Shown here piece by piece: positions 7,379 to 24,293 of a stretch of 64,000 nt of DNA. The position numbers were made by a program, and so were the translations under genes. A model generated the notes under the pieces. The model was not told where the DNA came from, searched no databases, and was given only the letters and a program-made list of their open reading frames with translations. The DNA comes from Lysobacterales bacterium. GTDB taxonomy: Bacteria > Pseudomonadota > Gammaproteobacteria > Xanthomonadales > SZUA-5. Each line of letters opens with the position of its first letter. Position 1 is the first letter of the stretch. The stretch covers positions 1 to 64,000 of the forward strand of contig JALHMG010000016.1 of assembly GCA_022844135.1 (NCBI GenBank). The letters run 5' to 3'.

Positions 7379-7389
7379 GGCAAGGCTCC

Positions 7390-10300: not shown

Positions 10301-12225
10301 ACGACCGAATGCGACGCCGATCGACGCGCATGTTCGAAAGCCGATTGATCGCGACCGATTCGCCGCAGATTGCCAACCCTGAGCCGATTGGCCACCAGCG
10401 CGCCTTGCGCGCTCTGGGTTGGGTAGTCGGGCAACTCGGTTCCGATCGGTCCGGTGCCTGGTTGCGACATCGCTTGCGCCGACGTTTCGCTTGGTTTCAG
10501 CAAGCCCAGAAGGCGCATGTCGGCGCCGCCTGTGCTCCACTCGAAATCGATCGCGAGTAAGTCCGAGCGTCGTTGATCGCTCCACGCCCGACGCGACATC
10601 TCGAAGTTGCTCACGTAAGGGTCCGGCAAGGTCGGCGCCCAGGCATTCACCGCGATCGACAACAGCAAATGCGCATGGTCGACATTGCCGCTGGCGCCAA
10701 GATCCCCGTGCAAAGCGAAAATGCGCGGCGTCTGAACCATCAAAGCCGCATTCTCAAGAACGACCAGTTGTGGCCGCTCTACCGGTGCAGACACATCCGG
10801 CAAGGGCAATAGCGTCACCGAGCGTTGATCCGGCACGCCAATCAGCGTGACCCAAACGGGCGCAGGTCGACATGCCAACGGCGTCCCAACCGCTGTTCGC
10901 GGTCGGTCGAGATCGGCCTTGGCGAGCGCCGAGAAAGAGACAAACGGCCGATCGTTGTCGACGATGCCGATGGCCAAAGCTGGCGCCGCGGGTAACGCGG
11001 CCTGAAGTTCGATGCGATGCAGTGCCTCCTCGCCGAGTCGCCACAGGGCGAAGCGCTGCGCATCATCCGCCCCGACGCGCTTGGCGGTCAGATCGATCAG
11101 CGCATACCCGCTGGCCCAGACCACCAGCTGCGCTTTGGTCAAGCGCACGCCGCTCTCGGGTCCGCCGGGCCAGGTCAGTCCTAGCGTTTGCGCGAGACCG
11201 AGGACCCATGCCACCTGACCCGCCGCCGCCGGCAACTGCAGTGGATCGGAGGGTGTGGTGAGCGCAATGGCCAGCGCCGCCGCGGCGATGGTCGACGTTC
11301 CGCTGAGCACGAAAGCCTCAGTCGACAGCGGATCGGAATTCAAGGTATCTGGCGCAACGTCGAACTGGATCGCCAGCATTCCGGACTGGACCGCCATAGT
11401 GCCGGCGTGCCGAAATTCGAATGCCTGGTCGTGGATTTGCGCGCGGCCATCCGCGGCGGCGACGCTGACGCTGCCATCGTTTGCGAATTCGAATTCGATG
11501 TAAGACGGCGCGCTTACGCTGATTCGCGGATCGGCATCGACCAGCGGTGCCGGATCGAGCCTGAGCCTGGTGGCCGTCCCGACCGAGACCGTGACCACAT
11601 CGCCCTGCCTTTGCGTCGCTTTGGCGAACTTGAGATCGCCCGCCTCGATCCGGAATCCCACATACGCGCCAGGTGGAGCGTTGGCCACAAGACTGCTGGC
11701 CAATACCCAGACGGACGACGCCGGCAATTCGATCTTGCGGTTGCTGACGACACGCCCAGCGCTCAGCAGCATCCATGGCAAGGCCAGGTCGCTGCGCCGG
11801 ATCTGCAGGCGAACCGCCGGTATCAGCACCTCGATCGGCACCAGCCTGCCGATGGCGTCGGCCAACGATCCCAGTTCGACGCCGGGTTTAACGTTGCGCA
11901 GCCGTTGCGTTGCGCCGCCGATGGCGAACGGCAGCTGGGCGGCAAGGTCGCGGTGCTGGATCAACGGTTCTTGTCCAGCGTCGAGTCCCAGCGCCCGCCG
12001 CACGTCCAGCGGCACATCGCTCTCGGTTTGTGCCGATGCGTCGCGACTGGCGCCGAGGGGCTGGAGCAGAGCATCGAAATCGCCCAAGCCGTAGAGTGCG
12101 CCGCGACCCGCCGAGCGCTCCATTAGCGGCAGGACGATATCGCTATCGGCAGTTGCGCCAGGGCGATCGTGCAGCAGCCATCGGCCTGGAGAGTGCGAGT
12201 TCGGCAGCTTGGTAGGCTTATTCAT
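7390..12225 (-). CDS. Giant uncharacterised protein A (1611 aa)
   Basis: I do not recognise this protein. The start ATG at 12225 is preceded by GAGGGA. There is no evident signal peptide. Most of the chain is low in Cys and looks beta-rich, with many short hydrophobic strands and Pro/Asp turns. The last ~160 residues differ: a Gly-rich block (GGGGFDSGSLSAKAGYE) leads into alternating, strand-like sequence (VVFGWGVELGGKLIIGG, GVAFGKELGPFKAKVTTG, GVGIGGF-like repeats) that could be a glycine-rich beta structure. Codon use and GC match the neighbours. It is the first gene of a two-gene unit with the 1214-residue protein. A structural or cell-surface role is possible but not shown. Confidence 0.87.
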   Translation of the reverse strand: MNKPTKLPNSHSPGRWLLHDRPGATADSDIVLPLMERSAGRGALYGLGDFDALLQPLGASRDASAQTESDVPLDVRRALGLDAGQEPLIQHRDLAAQLPFAIGGATQRLRNVKPGVELGSLADAIGRLVPIEVLIPAVRLQIRRSDLALPWMLLSAGRVVSNRKIELPASSVWVLASSLVANAPPGAYVGFRIEAGDLKFAKATQRQGDVVTVSVGTATRLRLDPAPLVDADPRISVSAPSYIEFEFANDGSVSVAAADGRAQIHDQAFEFRHAGTMAVQSGMLAIQFDVAPDTLNSDPLSTEAFVLSGTSTIAAAALAIALTTPSDPLQLPAAAGQVAWVLGLAQTLGLTWPGGPESGVRLTKAQLVVWASGYALIDLTAKRVGADDAQRFALWRLGEEALHRIELQAALPAAPALAIGIVDNDRPFVSFSALAKADLDRPRTAVGTPLACRPAPVWVTLIGVPDQRSVTLLPLPDVSAPVERPQLVVLENAALMVQTPRIFALHGDLGASGNVDHAHLLLSIAVNAWAPTLPDPYVSNFEMSRRAWSDQRRSDLLAIDFEWSTGGADMRLLGLLKPSETSAQAMSQPGTGPIGTELPDYPTQSAQGALVANRLRVGNLRRIGRDQSAFEHARRSASHSVVAPPRDGPPMRLRGLALLDVSTARHQMGVTIADDDSGARGFEDPFGGVGVPSMHPLMVVHGMRIGTWLPLMRAFALPQIQWEPVRTLEKDQDPITLGIFPTPLASADDGGPAVLVTPHMKLAASIPDLVVDGLIDAHQLGSDVAIATTLPFGMRAVMVLRGDSSPQRPADQMQRNEPDFKPQGGRPLRGALQLSLLAQGGKKTGKEDPSFLGATWQTKNGVDLVSGAPLGISVLGSTLGPAGSVENLFNNELAPGGSNPRVPLTRYELCGYGASTFSDWGNPNGSYGVVTKAQFQVMVGRTALEVIKVSSVVYPWGIRVTRSITIERKGGGGVIRKDSGWQALGPGLFDFTADGIPNQPYEIHPGLIRGIENVRRIRPLAQDALVLPDGGEVLPMAFDAEVLIDQKPDVCRAATVGMLGFLHIKGPPLPPTSSGPITAADLAALIAFQGPIGGAVDAEFLVGGSPFRARALRVEIDRASGPAPRFVGAVRAVPQFGAATSWSVVRSPGPAASDPGAETVAVLQGTPIVREGKALPGDGKTIHAPLSGPYRFADAADLFVPNQPQSDYGFMQSDTTHRFLYRRPSIFPNEQRVRAGLPPLLADFFAATTSKGLFPPAANTIALNNKPYELAIQSGTGRLRLVPDVDWLAPRPELVLAEGPSDGMRVVYDDARLRFQLHENAWTIDFPDIVLWSDFSFMKSASGSRQSLVGGSGKRAQLDRIENVLHPDLEDIFSILPMMNNRGVHGPIDLGATNLKIAWKIAAVLETKIEDPLGYAAIRLFAAIELAGENDTSSAPVDPSTEPGDLQLAGGGGFDSGSLSAKAGYEARFSIPIEPYPVAVVFGWGVELGGKLIIGGPDAGKTKGLAEISIYVGVAFGKELGPFKAKVTTGAGFLLQQEGSAVGIGGFIFLEIKASIEIAKIKVTGEFAVLCVTDNGEKYQKWSGEVAINVEVCWILSIKFSANVSDKKKLT

Positions 12226-12407: not shown

Positions 12408-12558
12408 TGTTGAGAAACGCACTTCCTGTGCGTTTCTCAAGTCGCGAGTCCGGCGCATGTCCGGACTCGCTCTCCATTGATCAAACACTTACGTGCTTGA
12501 TCAATGTGCGAACCATCCATGGTTCGCGCTAGCAGACTGTTTCTCAACAGCCTGCTAG
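12408..12558. ncRNA. Five consecutive hairpins; candidate structured RNA or ssDNA element
   Basis: Five stem-loops follow one another with gaps of only 1-4 bases. H1 is 12410-12422/12428-12440 (13 bp perfect, loop TTCCT). H2 is 12444-12453/12461-12470 (10 bp perfect). H3 is 12475-12488/12493-12506 (14 bp, one mismatch, loop TTAC). H4 is 12508-12516/12519-12527 (9 bp, tight loop). H5 is 12529-12541/12546-12558 (13 bp, one mismatch, loop TCTC). In addition TGTTGAGAAAC at 12408-12418 is the exact complement of GTTTCTCAACA at 12539-12549, so the two ends can pair with each other in an alternative fold. H5 contains the stop codon of the epimerase gene. It could be a terminator cluster, a leader of the giant-protein operon, or a mobile structured repeat. 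Confidence 0.7.
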
Positions 12559-13475
12559 GCCACTGCCACCGACCGGATGGCGCGCCCGATGCCCTCGCCG
12601 AGGGTCACGCGCGGCTGATAGCCGAGAACTGCCTTGGCGTGACTCAGATCAGCCACGAAGCGTTCGATCTCGCCGGTCTGCATCGGCGCTTCGATGATTT
12701 CCACGTCGCGCTCAACGCACTGCAGGATGGTGTCGGCGAGTGCCCGCAGGGTGCAGGGATTACCGCTGCTGATGTGAACGGTGTCGAGCGCGATGCGCCC
12801 GGCGACGAGTCGCTCGCAGCCGGTTAACAGGGCTCCGATGGCATCGTCGATGTAGGTGGGGTCGAGCACTTTCTGCGCTGCGTAAAGTGTCAGCGGCTGG
12901 CCGCTGCGTGCGCGCTCGATGAAGAGCGGGATGACTCGCTCCAGGCGATCCAGATCGGTATCGAAACGTCCATACACATTGCTCAGGCGCACGATCAATC
13001 CGCGCATCTCGTAGCAGCGGTGATAGGCGTGCAGCATCGCCTCGCTGGCAAGCTTGCTCGCGGCGTAGGGGCTGGCGCTTTGGTGCTGCACATCGGTTTC
13101 GCGTGTGACCGCGCGCCAGGTGTTGCCGTAGACCTCACGGCTGCTTGCCAGCAACACGACTGCAGCGCAGGCGCGCGTCATTTCCAACGCCGTCTGCGTG
13201 GCTGCGATGTTGTCGAGCGCGCGCATCGGGTCGAGGACCAGTGCATGGACTTTCGGATGCGCCGCCAGATGGACGACCACCTCGGGCGCAAAGTCCTGGG
13301 CGAGCGCGATGGCGCGGTCGCGCTGGGTCGTCATATCGATCGCCATTGTTTCGATGGCATCGGTCCAGACGTTGGGCCTACGATCGAGGCCGAGGACGCG
13401 ATGGCCGGCACGCTGCGCGGCCAGCGCCAGGTTGGCGCCGACCATGCCGCTGGAACCGGTGATCAAGAGCTTCAT
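12555..13475 (-). CDS. NAD-dependent nucleotide-sugar epimerase/dehydratase (extended SDR)
   Basis: This is a probable GalE/RfbB-type enzyme that modifies a nucleotide sugar. The 306-residue protein has the NAD-binding GSSGMVG at 7-13, the LAAHPKVH segment after beta-4, and Tyr137/Lys141 of the YxxxK site in SASPYAASK, with an upstream SSREVYG serine motif. The open frame continues 333 bases further upstream, but the ATG at 13475 overlaps the stop of the glycosyltransferase gene as ATGA and begins the fold directly. It is the last gene of the eight-gene biosynthetic operon and probably supplies a sugar for one of the two glycosyltransferases. Its exact substrate cannot be read from the sequence. 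Confidence 0.88.
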   Translation of the reverse strand: MKLLITGSSGMVGANLALAAQRAGHRVLGLDRRPNVWTDAIETMAIDMTTQRDRAIALAQDFAPEVVVHLAAHPKVHALVLDPMRALDNIAATQTALEMTRACAAVVLLASSREVYGNTWRAVTRETDVQHQSASPYAASKLASEAMLHAYHRCYEMRGLIVRLSNVYGRFDTDLDRLERVIPLFIERARSGQPLTLYAAQKVLDPTYIDDAIGALLTGCERLVAGRIALDTVHISSGNPCTLRALADTILQCVERDVEIIEAPMQTGEIERFVADLSHAKAVLGYQPRVTLGEGIGRAIRSVAVA

Positions 13476-14245
13476 GCGACGGCGCCCATGTAGTGCGTAT
13501 CGAAGAGCCAGCGTTCGGCACGAAAATCGCTCTCGCCGCGCAACACCGCCAGCGCGCGTTCGCGTTCGGCCGCGAATACCTGCGGGTGATTGAGGATGAT
13601 TTGCGCATACAGCGCCTCGTAGCGCTCGCGCACAGCGTGCACCTGCGATCCCGCGCGGCGCCGATGGCGAAACGGATAACCCGCCAGGTGCTGCGCACGC
13701 GCGCCCGAAGCGGCGGCGCCGATCCAGAAGTCCCAATCGTCGAAACCGCTGACGTTGCTGCGATAGCCGCCGAGTTGTTGCCACAAGCTGCGCTTGTATA
13801 GCGCGCAATAGCTGTGCTGATTGAAGCGCTTCAGGCGTTGCAATTCGAAGGGGCCGGCGCGACAGAGGCGATCGAAGTCGCCGAACTCCAGGCGGTCGGG
13901 AAAAACGATATCGGCATCGTTGGCTTGCGCTGCGGCGAGCGCGGCGCGCAAGAATCCTGGCGCCAGCAGATCGTCGGCATCGAGCGGCACGATGAATTCG
14001 CCGCGCGCCAGCGCGATGCCGGCGTTGCGGGCCGCGGCGACACCGGCGTTGACCTGACGGGCGAATTGCGTCGGCAATGGCGTGATCGCGATCAGCTGTT
14101 CGATCAGCGCAACGCTGTCATCGGCGCTGCCATCGTCGATCAGCACCAACTCGCAGCCGGGCAGGTTTTGTCCGGTCACGCTGGCAACCGCTTCGCTCAG
14201 CCAAGCCCTTGAGTTGAAACATGGAATCACCACCGAGACGCGCAT
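13472..14245 (-). CDS. Family 2 glycosyltransferase
   Basis: This is a GT-A fold enzyme that transfers a sugar from a nucleotide donor. The 257-residue protein starts MRVSVVIPCFNS, and has the LIDDGSADDS segment, the DADD metal-binding motif at 89-92 and an acidic SGFDDWDFW region near the catalytic base position. A much longer frame is open upstream but has no GT character. The start at 14245 shares one base with the stop of the radical SAM gene (TGATG). It lacks membrane segments, so it is probably cytosolic and could decorate the NRPS product or an intermediate. Confidence 0.9.
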   Translation of the reverse strand: MRVSVVIPCFNSRAWLSEAVASVTGQNLPGCELVLIDDGSADDSVALIEQLIAITPLPTQFARQVNAGVAAARNAGIALARGEFIVPLDADDLLAPGFLRAALAAAQANDADIVFPDRLEFGDFDRLCRAGPFELQRLKRFNQHSYCALYKRSLWQQLGGYRSNVSGFDDWDFWIGAAASGARAQHLAGYPFRHRRRAGSQVHAVRERYEALYAQIILNHPQVFAAERERALAVLRGESDFRAERWLFDTHYMGAVA

Positions 14246-15366
14246 CACTGACCTCGCGTGTACAGCAGATTGCACTTGGCGCACACCGGCATGAGGCCGC
14301 AGCGCTGCACGGTATCGCGAAGGTGCTTGAAACTGGCGCCGTGCCAGACATCGGTCAGCGTCTGTCGTTGCAGACTGCCCATCGTGAACTCGGGGAAAAA
14401 CTTGCACGACACGACGCTGCCGTCCGGGAACACGTCCATCCGGGTATGAATCGCGCCGCAGGCACGCTTGCCTTGCGCCGCTTGCGTGCTGCCGGACAGA
14501 AACGTAGCCAGATCGTGATCGGACAGGTCCGGGTTGTAGCGCACCTTCAGCGGCCCCCGGCGCGCATCGATTTGCCGCAGCGCGGCCCGCAATTGCGGCG
14601 TATCGGACAGCGCAAAACGATAGCCGTGCCAACTCGGTGCGCTGCCGCAGCGCAGGTGCGGGTGCCTGAGCGCAACGTAGCGATCCATTTCATCCGCAGC
14701 GGCGGGCGACAGGAACCAGGGAAAGCTCAAATATAGTGCGCCGACGCCGTGCTCCTCGATGCGCTCGACAAACGCCGGCAGATGTTCGACCAGCGCGTCG
14801 CTCAGCACCGCGTTGACGCTGATCTCGCCGAGGTAGCGCTGGCTATCGAGCAGTGCGCGCAGCCCGGCCATCGTGCGCGCGTAGGCGCCGCGGCCGCGCA
14901 GGGCATCGTGCATTGCCTCGAATCCGTCGAGCGATACCGATACCTCGAGGCGCTCGCCGAGGGCGAGCAGGCTGTCCAATCGGCGCTCGATCAGCGTGCC
15001 GTTGGTGCAAATCGACACATAGCGCTGGTGCGTGGCGAGGCGCTCGCAAAGCTCGGCAAAGCGGCGGTACAGCAGCGGCTCGCCGCCCCACAAAAACACA
15101 TTCGAATGCACGGGCGCCGTCGCATCGAGCACGCGTTCGATGACGCCAAGGTCGAGCTCATTGCGTTGCTCGATCGCGCTCAGTTGCTGATGGTGCCCGC
15201 CCTCGCCCCATTGATAGCAGTGCGTGCAGCGTAAATCGCAACGCGCGGTCAGCTTGAACGCAATTTCTTGCGGCAACGGCGCGGTTTCGAGCCGGCGCGC
15301 GTGCGCCAGTCCCGGCGCGATGCGCTTGAGTTTCTCCAGCGCCGTGGCATCCACGCCTGGGCTCAT
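14245..15366 (-). CDS. Radical SAM/SPASM protein (second copy in locus)
   Basis: This 373-residue protein carries the iron-sulfur motif CDLRCTHC (Cys43, Cys47, Cys50), a GGEPLLYRRF motif typical of the radical SAM core, and a C-terminal SPASM-like region. The latter has Cys in KRACGA, SCKFFPEFTMG and MPVCAKCN, which can hold auxiliary clusters. SPASM enzymes usually modify peptides, but some act on other scaffolds. The start at 15366 is chosen because its ATG overlaps the NRPS stop (ATGA); an ATG three codons upstream is also possible. It shares a CYxWGExG signature after the cluster motif with the other radical SAM protein of this locus, so the two are related. Substrate unknown. Confidence 0.9.
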   Translation of the reverse strand: MSPGVDATALEKLKRIAPGLAHARRLETAPLPQEIAFKLTARCDLRCTHCYQWGEGGHHQQLSAIEQRNELDLGVIERVLDATAPVHSNVFLWGGEPLLYRRFAELCERLATHQRYVSICTNGTLIERRLDSLLALGERLEVSVSLDGFEAMHDALRGRGAYARTMAGLRALLDSQRYLGEISVNAVLSDALVEHLPAFVERIEEHGVGALYLSFPWFLSPAAADEMDRYVALRHPHLRCGSAPSWHGYRFALSDTPQLRAALRQIDARRGPLKVRYNPDLSDHDLATFLSGSTQAAQGKRACGAIHTRMDVFPDGSVVSCKFFPEFTMGSLQRQTLTDVWHGASFKHLRDTVQRCGLMPVCAKCNLLYTRGQ

Positions 15367-18300
15367 CGTTGCCATCGCATCTCCCACCAGGCCAACACGG
15401 CCGCTCGTGTCTGCGCAGCAAATCTACGCAGATAACTGCTGTGATCGCCAGGCACCGGCCATTGGCGAACCTCCGCCAGCGGCTGCCACGCCGCGGCGAT
15501 CCGATGCCGCCGCGAATGTCGCGGTGCGATCAGGGCCAGCGCTGGCCCGGGCGCGCTGCGGTGCGCAACCGCTTGCGCCGCGACCTCAGCGCCGCGCGCA
15601 TCGCTGGCGCTGCGCGGCGCACCGACAGCTGCGATCTGTGCCCGCCACGCCTGGGCAACGCGCCACAAGGTGCCCAGCACATCCTTGCGGTAGGCCGATC
15701 GCAACAGCGATCGATTGCAATGCGCGATGAGCACTCGCGCCAGATCCTGGATCGCCAGGCGCCGAAGACGCCAGGCTTCGCGGCGCAGCTGCCGGGGCCG
15801 GACGCGCTCGGTGTAGTGCGCCACGCCAGCATCGGTCATCGGCCAGGTGTCGAGCAACAGCAAGTCCACCGGGCGCGGCCCGAGCACACGCGCCGCTTCT
15901 TGCGCCAGGACGCCGCCGATACACTCGCCGACGATGCGTAGCGGTCCCGTGGGCGAGCGCTGCTCCAACCGCTGCGCCAGCAGGCGCGCGCGCTCCGCGA
16001 GCGTGTCGGCATCCAGCGATACGATGCGCACACCGATCAACCGTATCGGCAGCGCGCCGAACGCAGCACGATACAGCGCCAGTTCGGCGTCGCCGCCGTG
16101 GCCGCCCGGAATGAGGTAGGCCGCTGGCCCGTCAGTCACGCCGGTCAAATCGACGAACAGTTCGTCGCCGCGAGGCGCGGCTGCGGTCAGGCAACGCGCC
16201 AATGCCCGAGCATTGGGCGCAGCGTTGAACTCGGCAATCTCGATCCGCCGCTGGAAACGTTGCATCAATTCCGAGAGCACCCGCAGCGCCAGCAAGGAAT
16301 GGCCGCCGCGCTCGTAAAAATCGTCGTCGGCGGCCATCGCCACCGGCGCCAGCGCCTGCTGCAGCACCGCCAGCACATCCGCTTCCATCGGCGACAACGG
16401 TGCAGCCATCGCAACCGGTTCGACCTGCTCGCGGTGCGCGCGCTTGCCGGAGGGCAGCATCGCTTTGGCGCGAACGCGATAGTCGCTGGGCAGCATCGTC
16501 GCCGGCCAGCGTGCTGCCATGCGTTGGCGCACCGCCCTCAGATCGGCGCCATCCTGCAGCTCAACCTCCGCCACCAGACGCACGTCGGGTACCCGCATCA
16601 GTTCCACGCGCGCCGCGCGCACATCGGCATCGGCACGCAACGCGGCTTCGACATGATCCAAGTGCACACGAAAGCCGCGCCATTTGACCTGCCGATCGAT
16701 GCGTCCGGCGAAATGCAGCTCGTCGTTCTCCAGCCACAGGCGATCGCCACTGCGATACAACGCGCCGTGTTCAGCGTCCTGGCGCACGCGCGGCTCATCG
16801 CCGTCGGTCAGCATCACACCGTCGCCGCCGAGCCAGGCCTCGCCGACGATGCCGGGCGGTAACAGCCGCCCGCAGCGATCCAGCAGCAGCACGCTGCGCC
16901 CTGGCAGCGGCGCGCCAAGCGGGACCGGGCCATCGATGCGTGACAGCGGGCAGGCGGTGGTAAACGTCGTGTTTTCCGTGGGACCGTAAACATTCACCAG
17001 GCGCACCGCCGGCAACGCAGCCAGAAAACGCGCCGCGTGCGTGGGCGACATCACTTCGCCGCCGGAGAGCACCAGGCGCATGCCGCGAAGCGCCCGAAGA
17101 TGAAAATCGACCAGCAGCTCGAACCAGCCGCTGCCCAGAAAAGCCACACTGATTCGCTGCGCTTCGATCCAGTTCGCCAAAGTCGCGGCCGACAGTCGCT
17201 GCGCTGGCGCGATCAACGTGGCGCCGTTGAGCAGGCTGGCCCAGATCTCGAAGGTCGACGCGTCGAAACCCAGCGGCGCAATCATCGCCACGCGATCGTC
17301 GCTACGTACGGCGGTGACACCCTCCATCAGCGCCAGTTGCACGATCGAGCGTTCGCCGATGCGGGCCGGTTTGGGCGCACCAGTGCTGCCGGAGGTGTAC
17401 ATCCGATAGCCGCCGCGACGATCGCACCGTGCCTGAGGGTGTTGCGATTCGATGACCCAGTCGCCGCTCGCTTGCGAGAGCGTCGCGGCGACGTCGCCCC
17501 AGGACTCGACCAGGCGCCGCGGATGCTGTGCATCGCACGGCACGTAAATCATGCCCAGCCGCGCCAGCGCGACGATGGCAATGACATACGCGGGCTGCGC
17601 TTCGATATCGACCAACACTGCCTGCCCCGGTCGAATGCCTGCCTCGGTGAGGCGCCGCATCAACGCGCCGGAAACTTCATCGAGGTCGCGATAGCTCAAG
17701 CTGCGATCGCCGCAGACCAGCGCAGGCTCGCTGCCGCGCTCGGCAACGATGGCCTGAAAGCGCACTGCGAGTGCGGGAATCGACGCCGGGTGTGGGGTCG
17801 CGAGCGCGCGGCCAGCCCAGTCGACGTCGCGCGGCTCACGCCCCGCCAGCAGTTGCGTGAGCAGTTGCTGCCAGGCGCGCAGCAAGCTTGCGGCCGTGGT
17901 GTCGGAGATGGTGTCGCGCGCCGTGTCCCAGCGCACGTCCAGGGCTGCGCCTCGCACCTGCAGCGTGATCAGATGGTCGACGGCGGCGGTCGGCGCCGGC
18001 AGCGCTTCGGCGCCGATGAGCTCTGGCCACGGCGCAGCGGTCGGCGCGTTCTGGAATGCGATGGTGGCACTGGCAGGCGAGGCATCGTCGCCGCGCTCGC
18101 GCAATGCGGCCGCCAGCCGGGCACTGGCTGCGGCGACGAGATCGGCAAATGAAGCGCTATCGTCGATCGCCAGTTCGACGCCCACCCGGCGCGACAGCGG
18201 GCCCACCATCTGCGCCGCGCGACCGCGATTCGAGTCCGCAATATGGAAACGCACGCAAAGCGCATCGCCGAGCCGCGAAAACAACAACGCTAGAGATACG

Positions 18301-18974
18301 AGCAACCACTCGAAGCTGCTGACGCCGAGCTTGCGCGCCGCCGCTTCGATCTGCGCTGCATCGCCCAACGCGTCGCGCAGCCGGCGCAGCGGTCGCGGTC
18401 CCACCTGTCGCGTACGAGTAGCAAAATCGACCGGACTCGGCGCGGCGGCCGGCGCCGCAGCGCGCTCGAGAGCCACCGCCCAGCGCGGCGCAGGCGGCAG
18501 CAACGCACCGCGATACAAGCGCGCCAACTCCTCGACAAACACCTGATACGACCAGCCGTCGAAAATCAGATGGTGCCAGCACAGCCACACGACCAGCGGG
18601 TCGCCCGCCACGATCGCAGCGCGCATCAGCGGCGCAGACGCGATATCGAACGGCGCAAAACAAAACGCCTCGCGCTCGGCGAGCGACGCGCAACGTTCGA
18701 CGCGCAGATTCGCCCGCGGCGCAATCCGCATCTGTCCGCCGCGGAAGTCCATGCGCAGCGCGTCGTGGCGCTCGACCATTGTGTGCAGCGCCGCTTCCAG
18801 GCGCGACACATCGAGCCTGGCAAATCGCAACTCGACTGCCAGCAAATGGGCCGCATCCGGCGCGGGCGCTGCGAGCAAGTGGCTTTGCGTTGCGCTCAAT
18901 TGCGGCGCGGTCGCGACCGGCGCCGCCGCCAGGCGAGCTTTGACCACATCGAACATGGCCGGTGAAATGCTCAT
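15363..18974 (-). CDS. Single-module NRPS, C-A-T-TE, with Cys nucleophile in the TE
   Basis: The 1203-residue synthetase starts with a condensation domain (about 15-430) that has HHLIFDG at 134-140. An adenylation domain follows (about 440-845; YTSGSTGAPKP, NVYGPTENT, A10-like SGKRAHRE). A carrier domain has GGHSLL (phosphopantetheine Ser893), and a thioesterase runs from about 940 to the end. A by-eye specificity code is D-A-F-F-L-G-V-T-F-K, close to codes for branched aliphatic residues such as Ile/Val, but this alignment is unverified. In the TE the nucleophile motif reads GECIGG, putting Cys1018 where Ser is usual; His1178 in GDHSS is the likely partner. An N-terminal C domain implies an acyl donor from upstream, plausibly the free-standing carrier protein loaded by the ligase. 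Start chosen by ATGA overlap with the preceding gene. Confidence 0.93.
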   Translation of the reverse strand: MSISPAMFDVVKARLAAAPVATAPQLSATQSHLLAAPAPDAAHLLAVELRFARLDVSRLEAALHTMVERHDALRMDFRGGQMRIAPRANLRVERCASLAEREAFCFAPFDIASAPLMRAAIVAGDPLVVWLCWHHLIFDGWSYQVFVEELARLYRGALLPPAPRWAVALERAAAPAAAPSPVDFATRTRQVGPRPLRRLRDALGDAAQIEAAARKLGVSSFEWLLVSLALLFSRLGDALCVRFHIADSNRGRAAQMVGPLSRRVGVELAIDDSASFADLVAAASARLAAALRERGDDASPASATIAFQNAPTAAPWPELIGAEALPAPTAAVDHLITLQVRGAALDVRWDTARDTISDTTAASLLRAWQQLLTQLLAGREPRDVDWAGRALATPHPASIPALAVRFQAIVAERGSEPALVCGDRSLSYRDLDEVSGALMRRLTEAGIRPGQAVLVDIEAQPAYVIAIVALARLGMIYVPCDAQHPRRLVESWGDVAATLSQASGDWVIESQHPQARCDRRGGYRMYTSGSTGAPKPARIGERSIVQLALMEGVTAVRSDDRVAMIAPLGFDASTFEIWASLLNGATLIAPAQRLSAATLANWIEAQRISVAFLGSGWFELLVDFHLRALRGMRLVLSGGEVMSPTHAARFLAALPAVRLVNVYGPTENTTFTTACPLSRIDGPVPLGAPLPGRSVLLLDRCGRLLPPGIVGEAWLGGDGVMLTDGDEPRVRQDAEHGALYRSGDRLWLENDELHFAGRIDRQVKWRGFRVHLDHVEAALRADADVRAARVELMRVPDVRLVAEVELQDGADLRAVRQRMAARWPATMLPSDYRVRAKAMLPSGKRAHREQVEPVAMAAPLSPMEADVLAVLQQALAPVAMAADDDFYERGGHSLLALRVLSELMQRFQRRIEIAEFNAAPNARALARCLTAAAPRGDELFVDLTGVTDGPAAYLIPGGHGGDAELALYRAAFGALPIRLIGVRIVSLDADTLAERARLLAQRLEQRSPTGPLRIVGECIGGVLAQEAARVLGPRPVDLLLLDTWPMTDAGVAHYTERVRPRQLRREAWRLRRLAIQDLARVLIAHCNRSLLRSAYRKDVLGTLWRVAQAWRAQIAAVGAPRSASDARGAEVAAQAVAHRSAPGPALALIAPRHSRRHRIAAAWQPLAEVRQWPVPGDHSSYLRRFAAQTRAAVLAWWEMRWQR

Positions 18975-20023
18975 GCGCTGTGATATCGGCAGCACGCGGT
19001 GCAAATCGACAGCAGGCCTTCGCGCAAGCGCGCACGCCATTGCTGCGCGCGCTCGTCGTGCCAGATCTCGCGCAGCGAGTTCCGATAGATATTGCCGAGG
19101 CTGGCATCGTAGAAACTGTGGCAGGTGCTCACCTCGCCGGCAGCGCTGATCTCGGCGGCCACCCACGGCATTGCGCAGCGTGCGCGGGCATCGTCCAACG
19201 CCGCAAAATCGCCACTGAAGTAGGCGCCCAGATTGCGCGCCGTGGGCCGCCGCGGCTGCAAATTCAGCTCAATGCCGCGCGCGGCGCACAGTTCGCCGAT
19301 GGCGACCAGCGCTGCCGCCAGTTGCGCGCAATCGACGGCAGCGAAATCCGCAGGCGACTGGCCATAGGCGTCGGCGTACGGTGTGGCGGTCACGCCGAAG
19401 GGTCGCAGTTCTGCGCGATAGCTCGCCAGTTGCGCCGGCGTTGCGTAACAGCAAAGCTCGATACTGAGCGCCGCGACGTGATCGAGCGGCAGGTTGGCGA
19501 CGTACGCTGGCGTGATCGCGTGCCAGTTGGCCGCCGTCACAATCGTCGTGACGCCAATCTCGGGGCGAGCGGCTGCCCCGCGCAAGGCCGCCAGGCGCTC
19601 GATGCCCGCCAGCGCGCGTGCGTACACGCCTGCGCCACGCTGTGCATCGTTGATGCCTGGCGGCCCGTCGATGGACACCCACAGGCGGCGCGGCGGGTGC
19701 GGCAACAGGCCCGGTGCGGCGGCGGCCAACCGCCAGCCGTTGGTCGAGAAACTCACCTCGCTGCCACGCGACGCAATCGCTTCGAGTACGCGATCGAGTC
19801 CCCGATATAGCAGCGGCTCGCCACCAAAAAACTCATAGCGCGGACGTTGCGGCGCGGCTTCCTCGATCAACGCCAGAACCCGATCGAGCTTGAGCTGACG
19901 CCGCCCGCCGATGCTGGCATAGGTGCCACGCTCGCCCCACTCGTAGCACATCGCGCAGCGCAAGTTGCAGCGCTCCAGCAGTTGCAGAACGATCAGGCTC
20001 GGCAGTGGCGTCGGCCTAAGCAC
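18971..20023 (-). CDS. Radical SAM/SPASM protein (first copy in locus)
   Basis: The radical SAM motif CNLRCAMC lies at residues 19-26 if translation begins at GTG 20023, which has an AGGA about 8 bases upstream and overlaps the preceding stop by 8 bases. An in-frame ATG at 20047 is the alternative. The core has FFGGEPLLYRGL and SFSTNGW. The C-terminus has SPASM-type cysteines (RCAMPWVA, STCHSFYD, ICTACCRY) and the GNIYRNSLREIWH element common in that domain. It precedes the NRPS and is related to the second radical SAM protein. It probably modifies a carrier-bound or free peptide-like intermediate; the reaction cannot be read from sequence. Confidence 0.88.
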   Translation of the reverse strand: MLRPTPLPSLIVLQLLERCNLRCAMCYEWGERGTYASIGGRRQLKLDRVLALIEEAAPQRPRYEFFGGEPLLYRGLDRVLEAIASRGSEVSFSTNGWRLAAAAPGLLPHPPRRLWVSIDGPPGINDAQRGAGVYARALAGIERLAALRGAAARPEIGVTTIVTAANWHAITPAYVANLPLDHVAALSIELCCYATPAQLASYRAELRPFGVTATPYADAYGQSPADFAAVDCAQLAAALVAIGELCAARGIELNLQPRRPTARNLGAYFSGDFAALDDARARCAMPWVAAEISAAGEVSTCHSFYDASLGNIYRNSLREIWHDERAQQWRARLREGLLSICTACCRYHSA

Positions 20024-21026
20024 AGGCAAATTCCTGCGCCAGCGCATCGATGTAACTGGGCCCGACGCGCGCCGCGAGCAAGCGCTCATGCATCGCCTTC
20101 AAGTCGTCCCCGCGCGCACCGCGCGCCAGCCAGTCCGCCAGCGGCATGCCCAGCCCGAGCGACTGCCACAGCGCGCCGCTGCGAGCCTCTGCAGCGCCAA
20201 ATGGTGGCAGCATCAGCAGCGGGGTCGCCGCCCAGAGCGATTCGATCAAGGTCCCGCCACCTGGTTTGCTGATCACAGCACGCGCCCCGCGCAGCAGCTC
20301 GTAAGCGCGATGCTCATGCGCTGGCGAAAAATCGTCGCTGCCCGCTGGCGCCATCGGCGGAAAGCGCGGGGCGCCATTCCACGGCCGCCACTCCGACGCA
20401 ACACGCCACACGCGCGCTCGCGGCACCGCCATCTCGCGTTGACCGCAGAGCACATCAGCCTCCCAGCCCGTCGGCAAGGCGTCGATGCCCACACCAAACT
20501 CGCCCAGCGCCCAGCCGCCGCCGTGCGCCACGACGCGGCGCTCGCGCTCTGCCCACGGCAACGGCAGGCGCGCATCCACCGGCAAACGCCAGTGCAGGGC
20601 GCCCTCGTGCCACAACCAGATCTCGCGATCGCCGTCCCGCGGCGCGCCATTCTCGAAGGATGCCGATACCACTGCGTCGATGCGGCAATGGTCGATGACC
20701 ACAGGCTTTTGCGCCAGCAATGGCAGCCAGAACCCGCTCCAGGCGGCGATGCGCTGGCCGCGCAGCGTGGCCTGCCACGCCGCCACTCTGGCCGCGTCGA
20801 AGCGCGCCGGGTCGTGGCGCGCGCGCCGATGGGCCAGCTGCGCGAGCCTGAAGTCCGATTGAAACGCCGGCACCGCACGTTCGCGTTCGCGCAGTGCCGC
20901 TTCGGTGTAGAGCGATTCCAGTACCGCAAGCGCGACATCGACGCCGCGCAACGCCAGGGCGCGATGCATCAAGAGCCCCGGGATGTAAACGCCTAAACCG
21001 GTGCCGGCGGTGAGGATCGTCAGCAC
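20016..21026 (-). CDS. GT-B-like glycosyltransferase
   Basis: A 336-residue protein that begins at GTG 21026, overlapping the carrier protein stop by 7 bases (GTGCTGA). The N-terminus (LTILTAGTGLGVYIPGLL) resembles the glycine-rich start of MurG/GT28-type enzymes. The C-terminal KPGGGTLIESLWAATPLLML is the donor-binding signature seen in that fold, where a Gly-rich loop and a Glu hold the nucleotide sugar. A longer upstream frame is open but is the shadow of neighbouring genes. It is likely soluble. The best reading is a sugar transfer step in the operon's product; family assignment is by motif only. Confidence 0.7.
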   Translation of the reverse strand: MLTILTAGTGLGVYIPGLLMHRALALRGVDVALAVLESLYTEAALRERERAVPAFQSDFRLAQLAHRRARHDPARFDAARVAAWQATLRGQRIAAWSGFWLPLLAQKPVVIDHCRIDAVVSASFENGAPRDGDREIWLWHEGALHWRLPVDARLPLPWAERERRVVAHGGGWALGEFGVGIDALPTGWEADVLCGQREMAVPRARVWRVASEWRPWNGAPRFPPMAPAGSDDFSPAHEHRAYELLRGARAVISKPGGGTLIESLWAATPLLMLPPFGAAEARSGALWQSLGLGMPLADWLARGARGDDLKAMHERLLAARVGPSYIDALAQEFACA

Positions 21027-21262
21027 GGCGCGCCGTCGAGAAAGGTCGCCAGGGTCCGCAGCGACCGCAGCATCTGGAACTCGAGACGATCGTAGTCGAT
21101 GCGCGTGCCGAGCGCGTCTTCCAGCTCCAACAGAAACTGCAGCGTTTCCAGCGAATCGAGACCGATATCGTCGATCAGATCGATGTCGTCGGCGACGTGC
21201 GCCAACGCCGGGTCGCGCTTGATCTTGGCCAGCGCCTGCCTGGCGAGATCGAGCGTACTCAT
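21020..21262 (-). CDS. Free-standing acyl carrier protein
   Basis: This 80-residue acidic protein has the carrier motif GLDSLETLQFLLELE, with Ser37 as the phosphopantetheine site. It is the natural partner of the divergent AMP-forming ligase, which would load it, and of the NRPS condensation domain, which would accept its acyl group. Both ends overlap neighbours: ATGA with the methyltransferase-like gene and a 7-base overlap with the glycosyltransferase, so synthesis is probably coupled. Confidence 0.92.
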   Translation of the reverse strand: MSTLDLARQALAKIKRDPALAHVADDIDLIDDIGLDSLETLQFLLELEDALGTRIDYDRLEFQMLRSLRTLATFLDGAPC

Positions 21263-21999
21263 GCGCCGCTCCGGATTGCCAGACCAATCCCCATGAACGG
21301 ACCGCGATCGTATTGCGCCGTGAATTCGAGGCAGCGATAGCCAGGCAACTGCCGAATGCGTCGCCAGATCTCACCGACGCCGGGGCAGCCGATGTTGGCG
21401 ATATCGTGCAGAGCCACCATGCGCGCGATCGGTGCCACGCGTTGAAATTCGGCCCAGCATTGTTCGGCCTCGTGGTGGGTGTCGATCATCGCCAGATCGA
21501 TGGCGCCCAGCGCGTGCAATTGCTCATGGAAGCGCGGCGTCAAGGTGGACACCTGCCAGAACGTCACGCCCTCGGGTGTGTAGCGATCGAGCGCGGGACA
21601 TGGCAGAACGTCGACCGCAATCGCGCGCGCAATCGGCGCCGCCCGGCGCAAGATTTCGACCGTCGCGATGAACGATCCGCCGTGGCGAACGCCCAGTTCC
21701 AGGTACGAGTGCACGCCAAGCTCGGCGAGCGCACTTAAGTACGGCGCGAACTGATTGGGATATTGCCAGACCAGCAAACCGCGCCCCAGCGCCGGCTGCA
21801 GCGACGCCGGGAACTCATCGCTTCCTTCATCATTCAATCCCAAATCGATGAGCAGCGATTCCAGCGCCGCAAGATCGGCAAAGTCGATCGTATCGGGAAG
21901 GCGCGCGAGTACCGAAAGGTCTGGCTCGCGCGCGCGCAGTTGCGATAGCAGCCGCCAGCTGCGTTGTTGCGCTAGAAACTGGTGTTCGAGAATCGGCAT
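21259..21999 (-). CDS. SAM-dependent methyltransferase-like protein (CmcI type)
   Basis: This 246-residue protein has a class I methyltransferase-like core. YLELGVRHGGSFI is a motif I equivalent, AIAVDVLPC is the motif II region, and DLAMIDTHHEAEQCWAEF with MVALHDIANIG resembles the CmcI-type families, where HDI follows the core. The start at 21999 (MPILEHQF) is favoured; a start 4 codons upstream is possible. It is the first gene of the operon, diverging from the ligase gene across 58 bases that must hold both promoters. A methylation or hydroxylation-linked tailoring role is inferred; the acceptor is unknown. Confidence 0.72.
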   Translation of the reverse strand: MPILEHQFLAQQRSWRLLSQLRAREPDLSVLARLPDTIDFADLAALESLLIDLGLNDEGSDEFPASLQPALGRGLLVWQYPNQFAPYLSALAELGVHSYLELGVRHGGSFIATVEILRRAAPIARAIAVDVLPCPALDRYTPEGVTFWQVSTLTPRFHEQLHALGAIDLAMIDTHHEAEQCWAEFQRVAPIARMVALHDIANIGCPGVGEIWRRIRQLPGYRCLEFTAQYDRGPFMGIGLAIRSGA

Positions 22000-22057
22000 G
22001 CGCGGCACCATTGGGAAACGCCGTTTGGAGGGCATCCATGTTGGAGAAGTTCCGCCC

Positions 22058-23455
22058 ATGATGAACGATCTGCTGCGCCACGCGCGACAGCGCTGGCCGA
22101 CCGCTACGGCCGTGGATTCGGTCGCAGGTTCCATGAGCTACGCCACGCTCGAGGCGCGCGCCTGCGCCCTCGCCGCGGGTCTGGCGGCGCGCGGCGTTGG
22201 CACTGGAGACCGCATTCTGCTCGCGGCGAGCAATTCGCCCGATGCGGTGGCCGCGATGCACGCCATCTGGCGCATCGGCGCGGTGCTGTCGTGGATCCAT
22301 CCCTCGACCCCCGAAGGCAAACGCGAGCGCCTCGCGGCGCGCCTGGCAGCGCGCGCGGTGCTCACCGATCCTGATCTGCCGGGGCTGGCACTTGGCGGCG
22401 AAACCGACTACGCCCAGCGCAGCGCCGACGACCTCGCGGCCATCCTGTTCACCTCGGGTAGCGAAGGCGAACCCAAAGGCGTGATGCTGCAACACGGCGC
22501 CATGCGCGCAGCGCTCGACGCCATCCAGTCCTATCTTGGCTACCGCAGCGACGACGTTGTCGGCACTGCACTGCCGCTGTCCTTCGACTATGGCTTGTAC
22601 CAGCTGCTGCTCGCGGCGAACGTCGGCGCCAACGCGAGCTTGCTGCCGGAGCTGGCCCTGCTGGGCAAAGCCGAGTCGGCGCTGCGCGCGGCCACGGTGC
22701 TGCCGCTGATGCCGAGCATCGTCGCGCTGCTGCGTGCCGGCGAAGTGCGCGCCTGGCCCGGCTTGCGGCTCATCACCAGCACCGGCGCGGCGCTGGCGCC
22801 GGCACAGATCGACTGGCTGCTGACGCATTTCCCGAAGGCGACGCTGTACTCGATGTACGGCCTGACGGAGTGCAAGCGCATCAGCTATCTGCCGCCGGAG
22901 TGGTTGGCGCGAAAGCCAGGCAGCATTGGCGTTGCGATTCCCGGTACGCGCGTCGAGATCGTCGATGAGGGTGGCGTATCGTGTCCCACTGGTGCTATCG
23001 GCGAACTGATCGTCAAAGGACCGACGTTGATGGCCGGCTACTGGAACGACCCGCCAGCCACCGCGCGCGCGCTGCGCCTGCAGGGTGGCGAACTCGCGCT
23101 GTTCACTGGCGATCGCGTGTACCGCGATGGCGATGGTCATTTGTACTTCGTCGGACGCAGCGATGACATCATCAAGTCCCGCGGCATGAAAGTAGCACCG
23201 AAGGAAGTCGAAGCGGCGCTGCTTGAAATCGACGGCGTCATTGCTGCGGCAGTGATCGGCATCGACGATGCCATGCAAGGTCAGGCCATTGCCGCGTACG
23301 TTGAACTGGCGCCGGGCGCGCCGTTGGCCGTTTCGGCGCTGCGCCGTCTGTGCGCCGCGCGCCTGGAAGCGCCGCTGGTTCCTAAACACCTGCATATCGT
23401 GGCGGCTTTGCCGCGCACGCCTAATGGCAAGATCGACAAGGCCGCACTGCGATGA
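22058..23455 (+). CDS. AMP-forming acyl/aryl ligase (ANL family)
   Basis: This enzyme activates a carboxylic acid with ATP and transfers it to a thiol. The 465-residue protein has the P-loop FTSGSEGEPKG at 131-141, the SMYGLTECKR motif, the GDRVYRDGDGHLYFVGR hinge region, and the catalytic Lys458 in PNGKIDKAALR. The ATG at 22058 has GGAG upstream; the frame is open further left only as shadow. It lacks a fused carrier domain, so the free-standing acyl carrier protein across the intergenic region is the likely acceptor. It diverges from the eight-gene operon and overlaps a 39-codon ORF at its end. Confidence 0.92.
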   Translation: MMNDLLRHARQRWPTATAVDSVAGSMSYATLEARACALAAGLAARGVGTGDRILLAASNSPDAVAAMHAIWRIGAVLSWIHPSTPEGKRERLAARLAARAVLTDPDLPGLALGGETDYAQRSADDLAAILFTSGSEGEPKGVMLQHGAMRAALDAIQSYLGYRSDDVVGTALPLSFDYGLYQLLLAANVGANASLLPELALLGKAESALRAATVLPLMPSIVALLRAGEVRAWPGLRLITSTGAALAPAQIDWLLTHFPKATLYSMYGLTECKRISYLPPEWLARKPGSIGVAIPGTRVEIVDEGGVSCPTGAIGELIVKGPTLMAGYWNDPPATARALRLQGGELALFTGDRVYRDGDGHLYFVGRSDDIIKSRGMKVAPKEVEAALLEIDGVIAAAVIGIDDAMQGQAIAAYVELAPGAPLAVSALRRLCAARLEAPLVPKHLHIVAALPRTPNGKIDKAALR

Positions 23456-23571
23456 TCGGGCCGTCTTTGCTGACCTGGGCGCAGCAACCGACCGCCTCCG
23501 CCGACGCGCTCGCGGCGCCGATGGGCCTCGTCGCGTACACGCCGTTTGATGTCAGTGGCTTTCATCCTTGA
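23452..23571 (+). CDS. Short ORF (39 aa) overlapping the ligase gene
   Basis: The ATG overlaps the ligase stop as ATGA, the same coupling used throughout this locus. The peptide begins MIGPSLLTWAQQPTAS and ends FDVSGFHP. It has no Cys. It could be the truncated start of a lost gene, a small accessory peptide, or a substrate for one of the two SPASM enzymes. The only support is the start-stop overlap and the setting. Confidence 0.4.
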   Translation: MIGPSLLTWAQQPTASADALAAPMGLVAYTPFDVSGFHP

Positions 23572-23624
23572 AACCTCAGTCGACTGCTCGTGGTTTGTTC
23601 AACGTGATTGTGTTGTCTGTGGCA

Positions 23625-24293
23625 TTACTTGGGCTGCAAGCGCACCGCGCCATCAGGGCGCATCGTGGTGCCGTTGAGATAACGATTGCTCAGCGCAAAG
23701 CACACGGCATCGGCGAACTCCGCCGGTTCGCCAAGGCGCGACGGGAACGGCACCATCGCTTCGAGCGAGGCCTTCACGTCGGGCGGCATGCCGCCGGCCA
23801 TCGGCGTCATGAAAATGCCAGGGGCGATCGTCACCACACGTACGCCAAAGCGCGCCAGCTCGCGCGCCATCGGCAGCGTCATGCCCACCACGCCGCCCTT
23901 GCTGGCGGAATAGGCCGCTTGCCCGATCTGTCCTTCGAAGGCCGCCACCGAGGCGGTGTTGATGATCGCGCCGCGTTCGCCATCGCTCCCGGCGGCGTTG
24001 TGCTGCATCAGATGCGCACCGGCCTTGGCGACGTTGAAGCTGCCGATCAAGTTGACGCGAATGGTGGTTTCGAAATTGCTGAGCGCCATCGGGCCGGTTT
24101 TTCCGAGCACACGACCCGCGCCGAGGATGCCGGCGCAGTTGATCACCGCGTTCAGTCCACCCATCGCCGACTGCGCCGCCGCGAGCGCGGCAATCACGCC
24201 TTCTTCGTTGGTGACATCGGTGCGGTAAAACCGCGCGCGTGCGATCCACCGAGCGAATTGAGATGTATACGGGCTCGTTTGCCGCGTTTGCAT
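23625..24293 (-). pseudogene. 5'-truncated SDR (3-hydroxyacyl-CoA dehydrogenase type) cut at a MITE
   Basis: From about 24236 leftwards the frame matches a short-chain dehydrogenase of the HSD17B10-like type: ARFYRTDVTNEE, the NCAG motif (INCAGILGAG), the active-site YSASKGG, and the ending NGTTMRPDGAVRLQPK. The N-terminal Rossmann strand with its TGxxxGxG nucleotide-binding motif is absent. The first ~19 codons (MQTRQTSPYTSQFARWIAR) are not SDR-like and start 3 bases from a MITE-like element. The gene has therefore lost about 50 residues and is unlikely to bind cofactor. The element's arrival may have accompanied the loss, although no SDR N-terminus is visible on its other side. Confidence 0.75.

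Follow-up and report, generated by a model that had tools for sequence, protein, structure and literature searches.

A nine-gene locus of radical SAM enzymes, a carrier protein and a nonribosomal peptide synthetase in a Lysobacterales bacterium, probably for a sugar-bearing small molecule

Do nine tightly packed genes that bring together two radical S-adenosylmethionine (SAM) enzymes, a free-standing acyl carrier protein (ACP), a one-module nonribosomal peptide synthetase (NRPS) and two glycosyltransferases act as one system, and what would such a system make? The question is raised by a 64,000-nucleotide stretch of a Lysobacterales bacterium (GCA_022844135.1, contig JALHMG010000016.1, positions 1 to 64,000), hereafter called the window, in which eight open genes in the order H-G-F-E-D-C-B-A lie on the minus strand from 21999 to 12555 and a ligase gene, I, runs divergently from them on the plus strand (22058-23455). 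We conclude that the cluster is real and apparently unstudied and that it probably assembles, on a carrier protein, a small molecule bearing a sugar; to the more specific reading, a biosynthetic cluster of nine genes for a glycosylated acyl-aminoacyl small molecule, we assign a probability of about 0.5. New here are the nine-gene synteny, the fold of protein F, the occurrence of C, F and G as a triad in five phyla, with C and F together in one more, the exchange of the loading enzyme and the separation of the two radical SAM enzymes.

Gene order supports the view that the nine genes form one functional locus and not a chance collection. All nine, in the window's order and with I divergent, are found in Chitinimonas prasina (L009) and Chitinimonas viridis (L010), with identities to the window proteins of 45% for I, 48% for H, 53-54% for G, 39% for F, 47% for E, 32% for D, 53% for C, 51-54% for B and 47-48% for A, and this recurrence in the same order is more than chance would give. 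A contig of an Acidobacteria metagenome-assembled genome (MAG; L011) that starts inside F carries F-E-D-C-B in order, and a Chamaesiphon MAG (L055) has the order C-I-G-F-D. The initial annotation had described an eight-gene locus and suggested a neighbourhood comparison with the radical SAM proteins as queries; in that comparison the same genes were indeed found together in other genomes, so the conserved neighbourhood stands, but the conserved set is nine and includes the ligase. Two further observations concern these relatives: gene C of L011 shows a frame shift near its end (about 7048-7155, two tblastn pieces), which is either sequence error or decay, and an ABC transporter ATPase gene follows A in C. 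viridis (L010, 19205-20608).

The minus-strand genes overlap end to start at all seven junctions, as previously described, and recomputation reproduced every coordinate: H/G by 4 bases (21259-21262, ATGA), G/F by 7 (21020-21026, GTGCTGA), F/E by 8 (20016-20023, GTGCTTAG), E/D by 4 (18971-18974, ATGA), D/C by 4 (15363-15366, ATGA), C/B by 1 (14245) and B/A by 4 (13472-13475, ATGA). Short overlaps are also present in Chitinimonas (from the listed starts, 4 bases at G/F, 4 at F/E, about 11 at E/D and about 8 at D/C), where H and G do not overlap. On the other strand the ligase gene, which ends at 23455, overlaps by 4 bases a 39-codon open reading frame (ORF) starting at 23452, again as first described; at E 1e-4 tblastn found nothing like this ORF in the 65 related loci introduced below, a test of little power for a query of this length, and we do not count it as a gene. 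Beyond it, at 23625-24293 on the minus strand, a short-chain dehydrogenase frame adjoins the ligase gene; its N-terminal part is missing, and none of the three frames over the upstream 200 bases supplies it. It is probably a truncated gene at the cluster border. This remnant and a shortened condensation domain in D are what could speak for a decayed or chance assembly of unrelated genes, an explanation that is contradicted by the synteny and that we consider the least probable of all: the nine frames are open, the radical SAM, carrier and NRPS motifs are retained, the seven overlaps are in place and the order is conserved in other phyla.

Pfam agreed with the domain calls made at the outset, namely two radical SAM proteins with SPASM domains, an NRPS with Condensation, AMP-binding and PP-binding domains, a free-standing PP-binding protein, an ANL-superfamily ligase, a family-2 glycosyltransferase and a methyltransferase-like protein (RMNT_CmcI/Methyltransf_24). 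Two calls were refined, as A, previously unnamed, is an epimerase and F is a glycosyltransferase by its predicted fold alone. The NRPS, D (15363-18974, minus strand, 1203 aa), is a single module of condensation, adenylation, peptidyl carrier protein (PCP) and thioesterase-like domains according to Pfam and to an alignment of five synthetases from the window, Chitinimonas, the Acidobacteria MAG and Chamaesiphon, the last of which has the same four domains. Its Pfam matches to the condensation, adenylation and PP-binding domains are above cut-off, and it retains HHLIFDG of the HHxxxDG type, the adenylation core motifs YTSGSTG, NVYGPTEN and YRSGD, and the carrier serine in GGHSL. The thioesterase match (20.6 bits) lies under the 26.4 cut-off, and its nucleophile motif reads GECIGG in the window, GECVGG in L009, L010 and L011 and GYSFGA in L055. 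As cysteine replaces the serine of GxSxG, D does not have a serine-type thioesterase, and the domain would be of the cysteine type; cysteine thioesterases are known from the release of strained rings such as the beta-lactone of obafluorin. The specificity codes, located by motif with PheA numbering and read by eye, are DAFFLGVTFK in the window, DAFWLGCTFK in Chitinimonas and DAFFLGCTFK in the Acidobacteria MAG, which we take to be of the valine/isoleucine kind, and DILQLGLIWK in Chamaesiphon, which presumably denotes glycine.

Protein F (20016-21026, minus strand, 336 aa) had no Pfam match at E 0.01. An AlphaFold2 model built from 13 homologues (mean pLDDT 86.4) was matched by Foldseek in the PDB to the elaiophylin glycosyltransferase, MurG and CalG3 with E values of 5e-9 to 2e-8, TM scores of about 0.5-0.6 and identities of 10-15%, and by this prediction F is a glycosyltransferase of GT-B fold, similar to families GT1 and GT28. 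The stretches HGGGW and SKPGGxTL are invariant in the 13 relatives, and we assume that they have a role in donor binding.

The distribution of C, F and G extends well beyond the full cluster. An alignment scan with E and C over contigs of 84,980 species gave 65 loci, from which nine (L065-L073) were dropped because the match covered only part of the radical SAM core; no F or G match was found in these nine. Of the 56 loci that remain (L009-L064), 54 encode an F-like protein and 54 a G-like carrier. The gaps are L011, which lacks G and whose contig begins inside F; L012, which lacks both, with a contig that begins 178 bases before the C match and neither gene in the 10 kb on the other side; and L016, which has G and no F within 10 kb on each side. 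Since the scan selected for C, the independent evidence consists of F and G only. The full trio is present in five phyla, Pseudomonadota (Chitinimonas), Bacillota, Actinomycetota, Bacteroidota and Cyanobacteriota, and C occurs with F in a sixth, Acidobacteria, where the contig is cut. The genes come in no fewer than four arrangements: Actinobacteria show C-G-(ATP-grasp)-...-F, Paenibacillus and a Cyclobacteriaceae MAG share G-(ATP-grasp)-F-C, Chamaesiphon has C-I-G-F-D and the window I/H-G-F-E-D-C-B-A. This variety argues that the co-occurrence is not merely inherited order. As a check that does not depend on the scan, a tblastn search of F against 72,556 plasmid records gave two matches, both from Streptomyces; C matched 177 records, and the best 20 of these were headed by the same two (41% identity over at least 92% of C), the next among the best 20 being at about 28% or less. 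In both plasmid records F lies about 3.6 kb from C, and the order is C, G, ATP-grasp, Gfo/Idh, APH-like kinase, F and a short condensation-domain match; in the annotated one the label 'hypothetical protein' is given to the relative of F and to the ATP-grasp protein alike.

The enzyme that loads the carrier appears to be exchangeable. A relative of one conserved protein is present in 50 of the 56 loci and absent from L009, L010 and L055, which have the ANL ligase instead, and from L011 (cut contig), L012 and L016. In the two members scanned, Pfam found nothing and NCBIfam gave no more than a weak match (E 0.005). The member at 10477-11661 of L014 was modelled with AlphaFold2 (pLDDT 91.6), and its best match was 8ynd, among ATP-grasp ligases, at E 7.6e-19; from this one model the conserved protein is predicted to have an ATP-grasp fold, and from its position it may charge the carrier. 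A protein resembling a condensation domain, in parallel with that of D, is found in 17 of the 56 loci; two of these (L011 and L055) are NRPS condensation domains, and the one of L014 alone was checked by Pfam. Two side observations belong to this set: 26 of the 56 loci encode relatives of a 347-aa protein (L023, 16530-17573) that matches nothing in Pfam or NCBIfam and in Paenibacillus lies near ABC transporter genes, and C of L046, titled Rhodococcus rhodnii NRRL B-16535 with a 12.4-Mb genome, is nearly identical to that of Kibdelosporangium aridum, so that the strain name may be wrong.

Both radical SAM enzymes, E (18971-20023, minus strand, 350 aa, CNLRCAMC; Radical_SAM 7.7e-13, SPASM 1.5e-12) and C (14245-15366, minus strand, 373 aa, CDLRCTHC; Radical_SAM 8.7e-20, SPASM 2.9e-11), carry CxxxCxxC and both Pfam domains above cut-off, and four C-terminal cysteines align between them in a twitch-like form. 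Neither an equivalog match nor a precursor gene marks them as maturases of ribosomally synthesised and post-translationally modified peptides: none of the best 25 of the 79 and 57 NCBIfam families matched reached its cut-off for C or E, and no precursor peptide was seen, the 39-aa ORF being without a relative in the 65 loci. In a maximum-likelihood tree of 20 radical SAM proteins, in which the program flags long branches including that of the window's E, 15 C-type proteins share one branch (100/100) and three E proteins, from the window, Chitinimonas and the Acidobacteria MAG, share another (100/100); the C proteins of the window, Chitinimonas, Acidobacteria and Chamaesiphon group at 96/96. 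The separate clades place C in a stage common to all loci and make E an addition of the window's branch. The earlier assignment of both as SPASM enzymes is kept, with the correction that the two are not equivalent: the clade of C is widespread and linked to F and G, and the close E relatives seen (45-48%) are confined to Chitinimonas and a single Acidobacteria MAG.

Searches with E agree with this narrow distribution. The second match in its own genome is the neighbouring C (32% identity), and in 53 of the 56 loci what matched E was in fact C, with at most 113 bits where a true E scores 312-320. In the order of Chitinimonas 2 of 250 genomes matched, both from the already known species, and in the phylum of the Acidobacteria MAG, with up to seven candidates per genome scored, 9 of 297 genomes matched, closely only in that MAG (46%) and at 28-35% in the others. 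Those eight had no F, G, H or D match within about 1.5 kb on each side and were not counted as members; matches of the family-2 glycosyltransferase kind adjoin two of them (L081 and L084). Two (L083 and L085) are nearer to E than to C, and in the tree L083 groups with E, though its branch is long and uncertain (84/78), which leaves the boundary of the E clade loose.

These distributions bear on the stage at which the enzymes act. In a different account of the same cluster, the radical SAM enzymes would act on the NRPS-bound amino acid or on the released dipeptide, and F and B would glycosylate last. All close E relatives seen stand next to an NRPS whose code is of the DAF[FW]LG[VC]TFK type, so E at least may act there. 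Against this, C, F and G stand together in loci with a probable ATP-grasp loader in which similarity to D is at most 62 bits, so that C and F are more likely to belong to the carrier stage. We regard this account as the most credible of the alternatives, although unlikely, and prefer action of C and F on the carrier-bound group.

Considering the above, we propose a plausible route of which the reactions, their order, the substrates and the product are what we infer from gene content. Ligase I (465 aa; AMP-binding 8.6e-69, AMP-binding_C 2.7e-15) would activate a carboxylic acid and load it on the carrier G (21020-21262, minus strand, 80 aa; PP-binding 2.2e-7), the serine of whose GLDSLE motif would be charged by one of the two phosphopantetheinyl transferases matched in the host genome (5.34 Mb, 75 contigs). 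F would add a sugar to the G-bound acyl group, and C would remodel the tethered conjugate by C-C bond formation, epimerisation, dehydrogenation or decarboxylation. The condensation domain of D would then join the conjugate to an aliphatic amino acid, in keeping with its valine/isoleucine-like code, and its cysteine thioesterase would release the product. E, H, B and A may serve in later or parallel tailoring or in sugar supply. H (21259-21999, minus strand) is a methyltransferase-like protein of 246 aa from the ATG at 21999, a start that is uncertain as 22035 is also possible; its matches to RMNT_CmcI (2e-6) and Methyltransf_24 (2.8e-6) are above cut-off, and a PDB sequence search at E 0.01 gave no match. 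B (13472-14245, minus strand, 257 aa) is a family-2 glycosyltransferase (Glycos_transf_2 6.1e-30) with 50-54% identity to its Chitinimonas and Acidobacteria counterparts, and A (12555-13475, minus strand, 306 aa) is an NAD-dependent sugar epimerase/dehydratase (Epimerase 1.7e-41). The idea already put forward in the initial annotation, that an ANL ligase and a free ACP feed an N-terminal condensation domain, remains plausible and is strengthened by Chamaesiphon, where a radical SAM protein of type C, a ligase with 34% identity to I, an ACP, F and the four-domain NRPS stand in a row. That first interpretation is thus partly supported and sensible in its broad lines.

A broader and more tentative proposal is that C, F and G form a portable module, found in at least five phyla, whose radical SAM enzyme joins a sugar to an acid held on the carrier, with exchangeable loaders (ATP-grasp or ANL) and off-loaders (a separate condensation domain or an NRPS). 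The window's branch would add a cysteine thioesterase and one more radical SAM step, leading to an undescribed class of fused or strained glyco-acyl-amino-acid products.

The glycosyltransferases also invite another interpretation, a pathway that modifies a surface glycan or lipid and makes no secreted small molecule. A family-2 glycosyltransferase, a sugar epimerase and a GT-B protein related in fold to MurG would suit it, F and its Paenibacillus relative show weak NCBIfam similarity to diglucosyl diacylglycerol synthase, and the nearest NCBIfam model of the ligase, TIGR03098 (333 bits, under its 592 cut-off), is exosortase-associated. A UDP-glucose/GDP-mannose dehydrogenase gene abuts the ligase gene in C. 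viridis (L010, 4538-6094), and the nine genes include no transporter. However, an NRPS module with condensation domain and thioesterase is present in the four related loci aligned, the best fold matches of F include natural-product glycosyltransferases besides MurG, and transporter genes do occur near C, F and G (an ABC-2 membrane protein in 25 of the 56 loci, an MFS protein in L018, and also on a Streptomyces plasmid). We therefore judge a surface-glycan role improbable and retain the small-molecule cluster as the preferred reading.

Several points weigh against that reading. Knowledge of the full set comes from two Chitinimonas genomes that are nearly identical and from one cut Acidobacteria contig, and in the latter the 478 bases beyond B show no match to A. 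F was not matched in the other 60 of 61 genomes of relatives nor, with at most five candidates per genome scored, in the other 368 of 369 of the class, and the same class-wide search found no further genome with E among those 368. The condensation domain of D lacks stretches of 27 and 15 residues that are present in the other four synthetases, and its Pfam match covers residues 53-156, the first part only, so condensation activity is not assured. The triad counts are inflated by close relatives, many from Paenibacillus and Streptomyces, and the exchange of loaders is slightly blurred by L017, L018 and L020, three loci that give weak matches to a ligase (67-75 bits) besides having an ATP-grasp protein. 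The nine genes include neither a transporter nor a resistance gene, no enzyme with a known reaction was found in the families of C, E and F, and F may act after release instead.

As for the surroundings, the host genome has Condensation matches on contig 19 in addition to that in the window. The GC content of the cluster is 66.9%, against 62.8% and 61.7% in the window flanks; horizontal import would fit this contrast, yet the GC3 values of the nine (0.73-0.84) overlap with those of genes in the flanks, and we do not press the point. Between 43000 and 47000, in the surroundings of an 864-aa ORF that matches FG-GAP weakly, the GC content drops to about 50%, the window elsewhere being mostly near 60-65%. 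Two very long ORFs of 1238 and 1611 aa overlap at 3734-7450 and 7390-12225 on the minus strand, the former with no Pfam match at 1e-5.

The locus links poorly annotated protein families, those members of the F and ATP-grasp families that were scanned being without a Pfam family, and predicts that the relatives of F and the ATP-grasp proteins serve one carrier protein. Glycosylation of a carrier-bound group followed by radical SAM chemistry has so far been a proposal for mitomycin, and a family spread over several phyla offers many natural experiments on it. The full set is present in named Chitinimonas strains, and the recurrence of the central trio in very distant bacteria makes it a good target for new chemistry.

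The initial annotation knew of no described pathway with this gene set, and we likewise found none in the open-licence literature of PubMed Central, subscription papers being mostly outside that scope. The nearest parallel is mitomycin of Streptomyces lavendulae, for which the parts of the account available to us state that MitE activates and MmcB carries the acid, that MitB glycosylates it on the carrier and that the radical SAM enzyme MitD is proposed for C-C bond formation (PMC8621148). By gene roles, not by sequence, the window holds all four functions, a CoA/ACP ligase, an ACP, an ACP-dependent glycosyltransferase and a radical SAM enzyme, and one could imagine a mitomycin-type pathway from aminohydroxybenzoate and an amino sugar. 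This is very unlikely: no aminohydroxybenzoate supply gene, aminoshikimate gene or deacetylase gene was found among the ten proteins of 12555-24293 that were scanned, those parts of the mitomycin account name no NRPS (PMC8621148), and the window differs by its NRPS module, second radical SAM enzyme, methyltransferase, epimerase and two glycosyltransferases. Nucleocidin was considered because of a Streptomyces calvus locus (L022), since the known nucleocidin cluster encodes a radical SAM protein, NucJ, and a glucosyltransferase, NucGT; the word 'carrier' is absent from the portion of the main text of PMC8694150 available to us and L022 could not be tied to that cluster, so no relation is claimed.

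Among radical SAM proteins, the sequence relatives of C in the PDB (E at most 1e-5) are the anaerobic sulfatase maturase, SkfB, cytosylglucuronate decarboxylase and the radical SAM domain of ChlB, which have the architecture of C in common, while no precursor peptide was seen in the window. EntF and ObiF1, both among the PDB matches of the Chamaesiphon NRPS, share the domain order of D, and a cysteine-type thioesterase is known in the obafluorin synthetase; the window differs from both in the proposed supply of the donor by a free-standing ACP that has a glycosyltransferase and a radical SAM enzyme of its own. The loci of Streptomyces, Kribbella and Paenibacillus, for which no product was found in the open-licence literature, have the triad C, F and G in common with the window. 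They carry an ATP-grasp protein instead of the ANL ligase, E, H, B and A, together with a Gfo/Idh/MocA oxidoreductase and an APH-like kinase in Actinobacteria and an ABC transporter, at times with a GH3 protein, in Paenibacillus.

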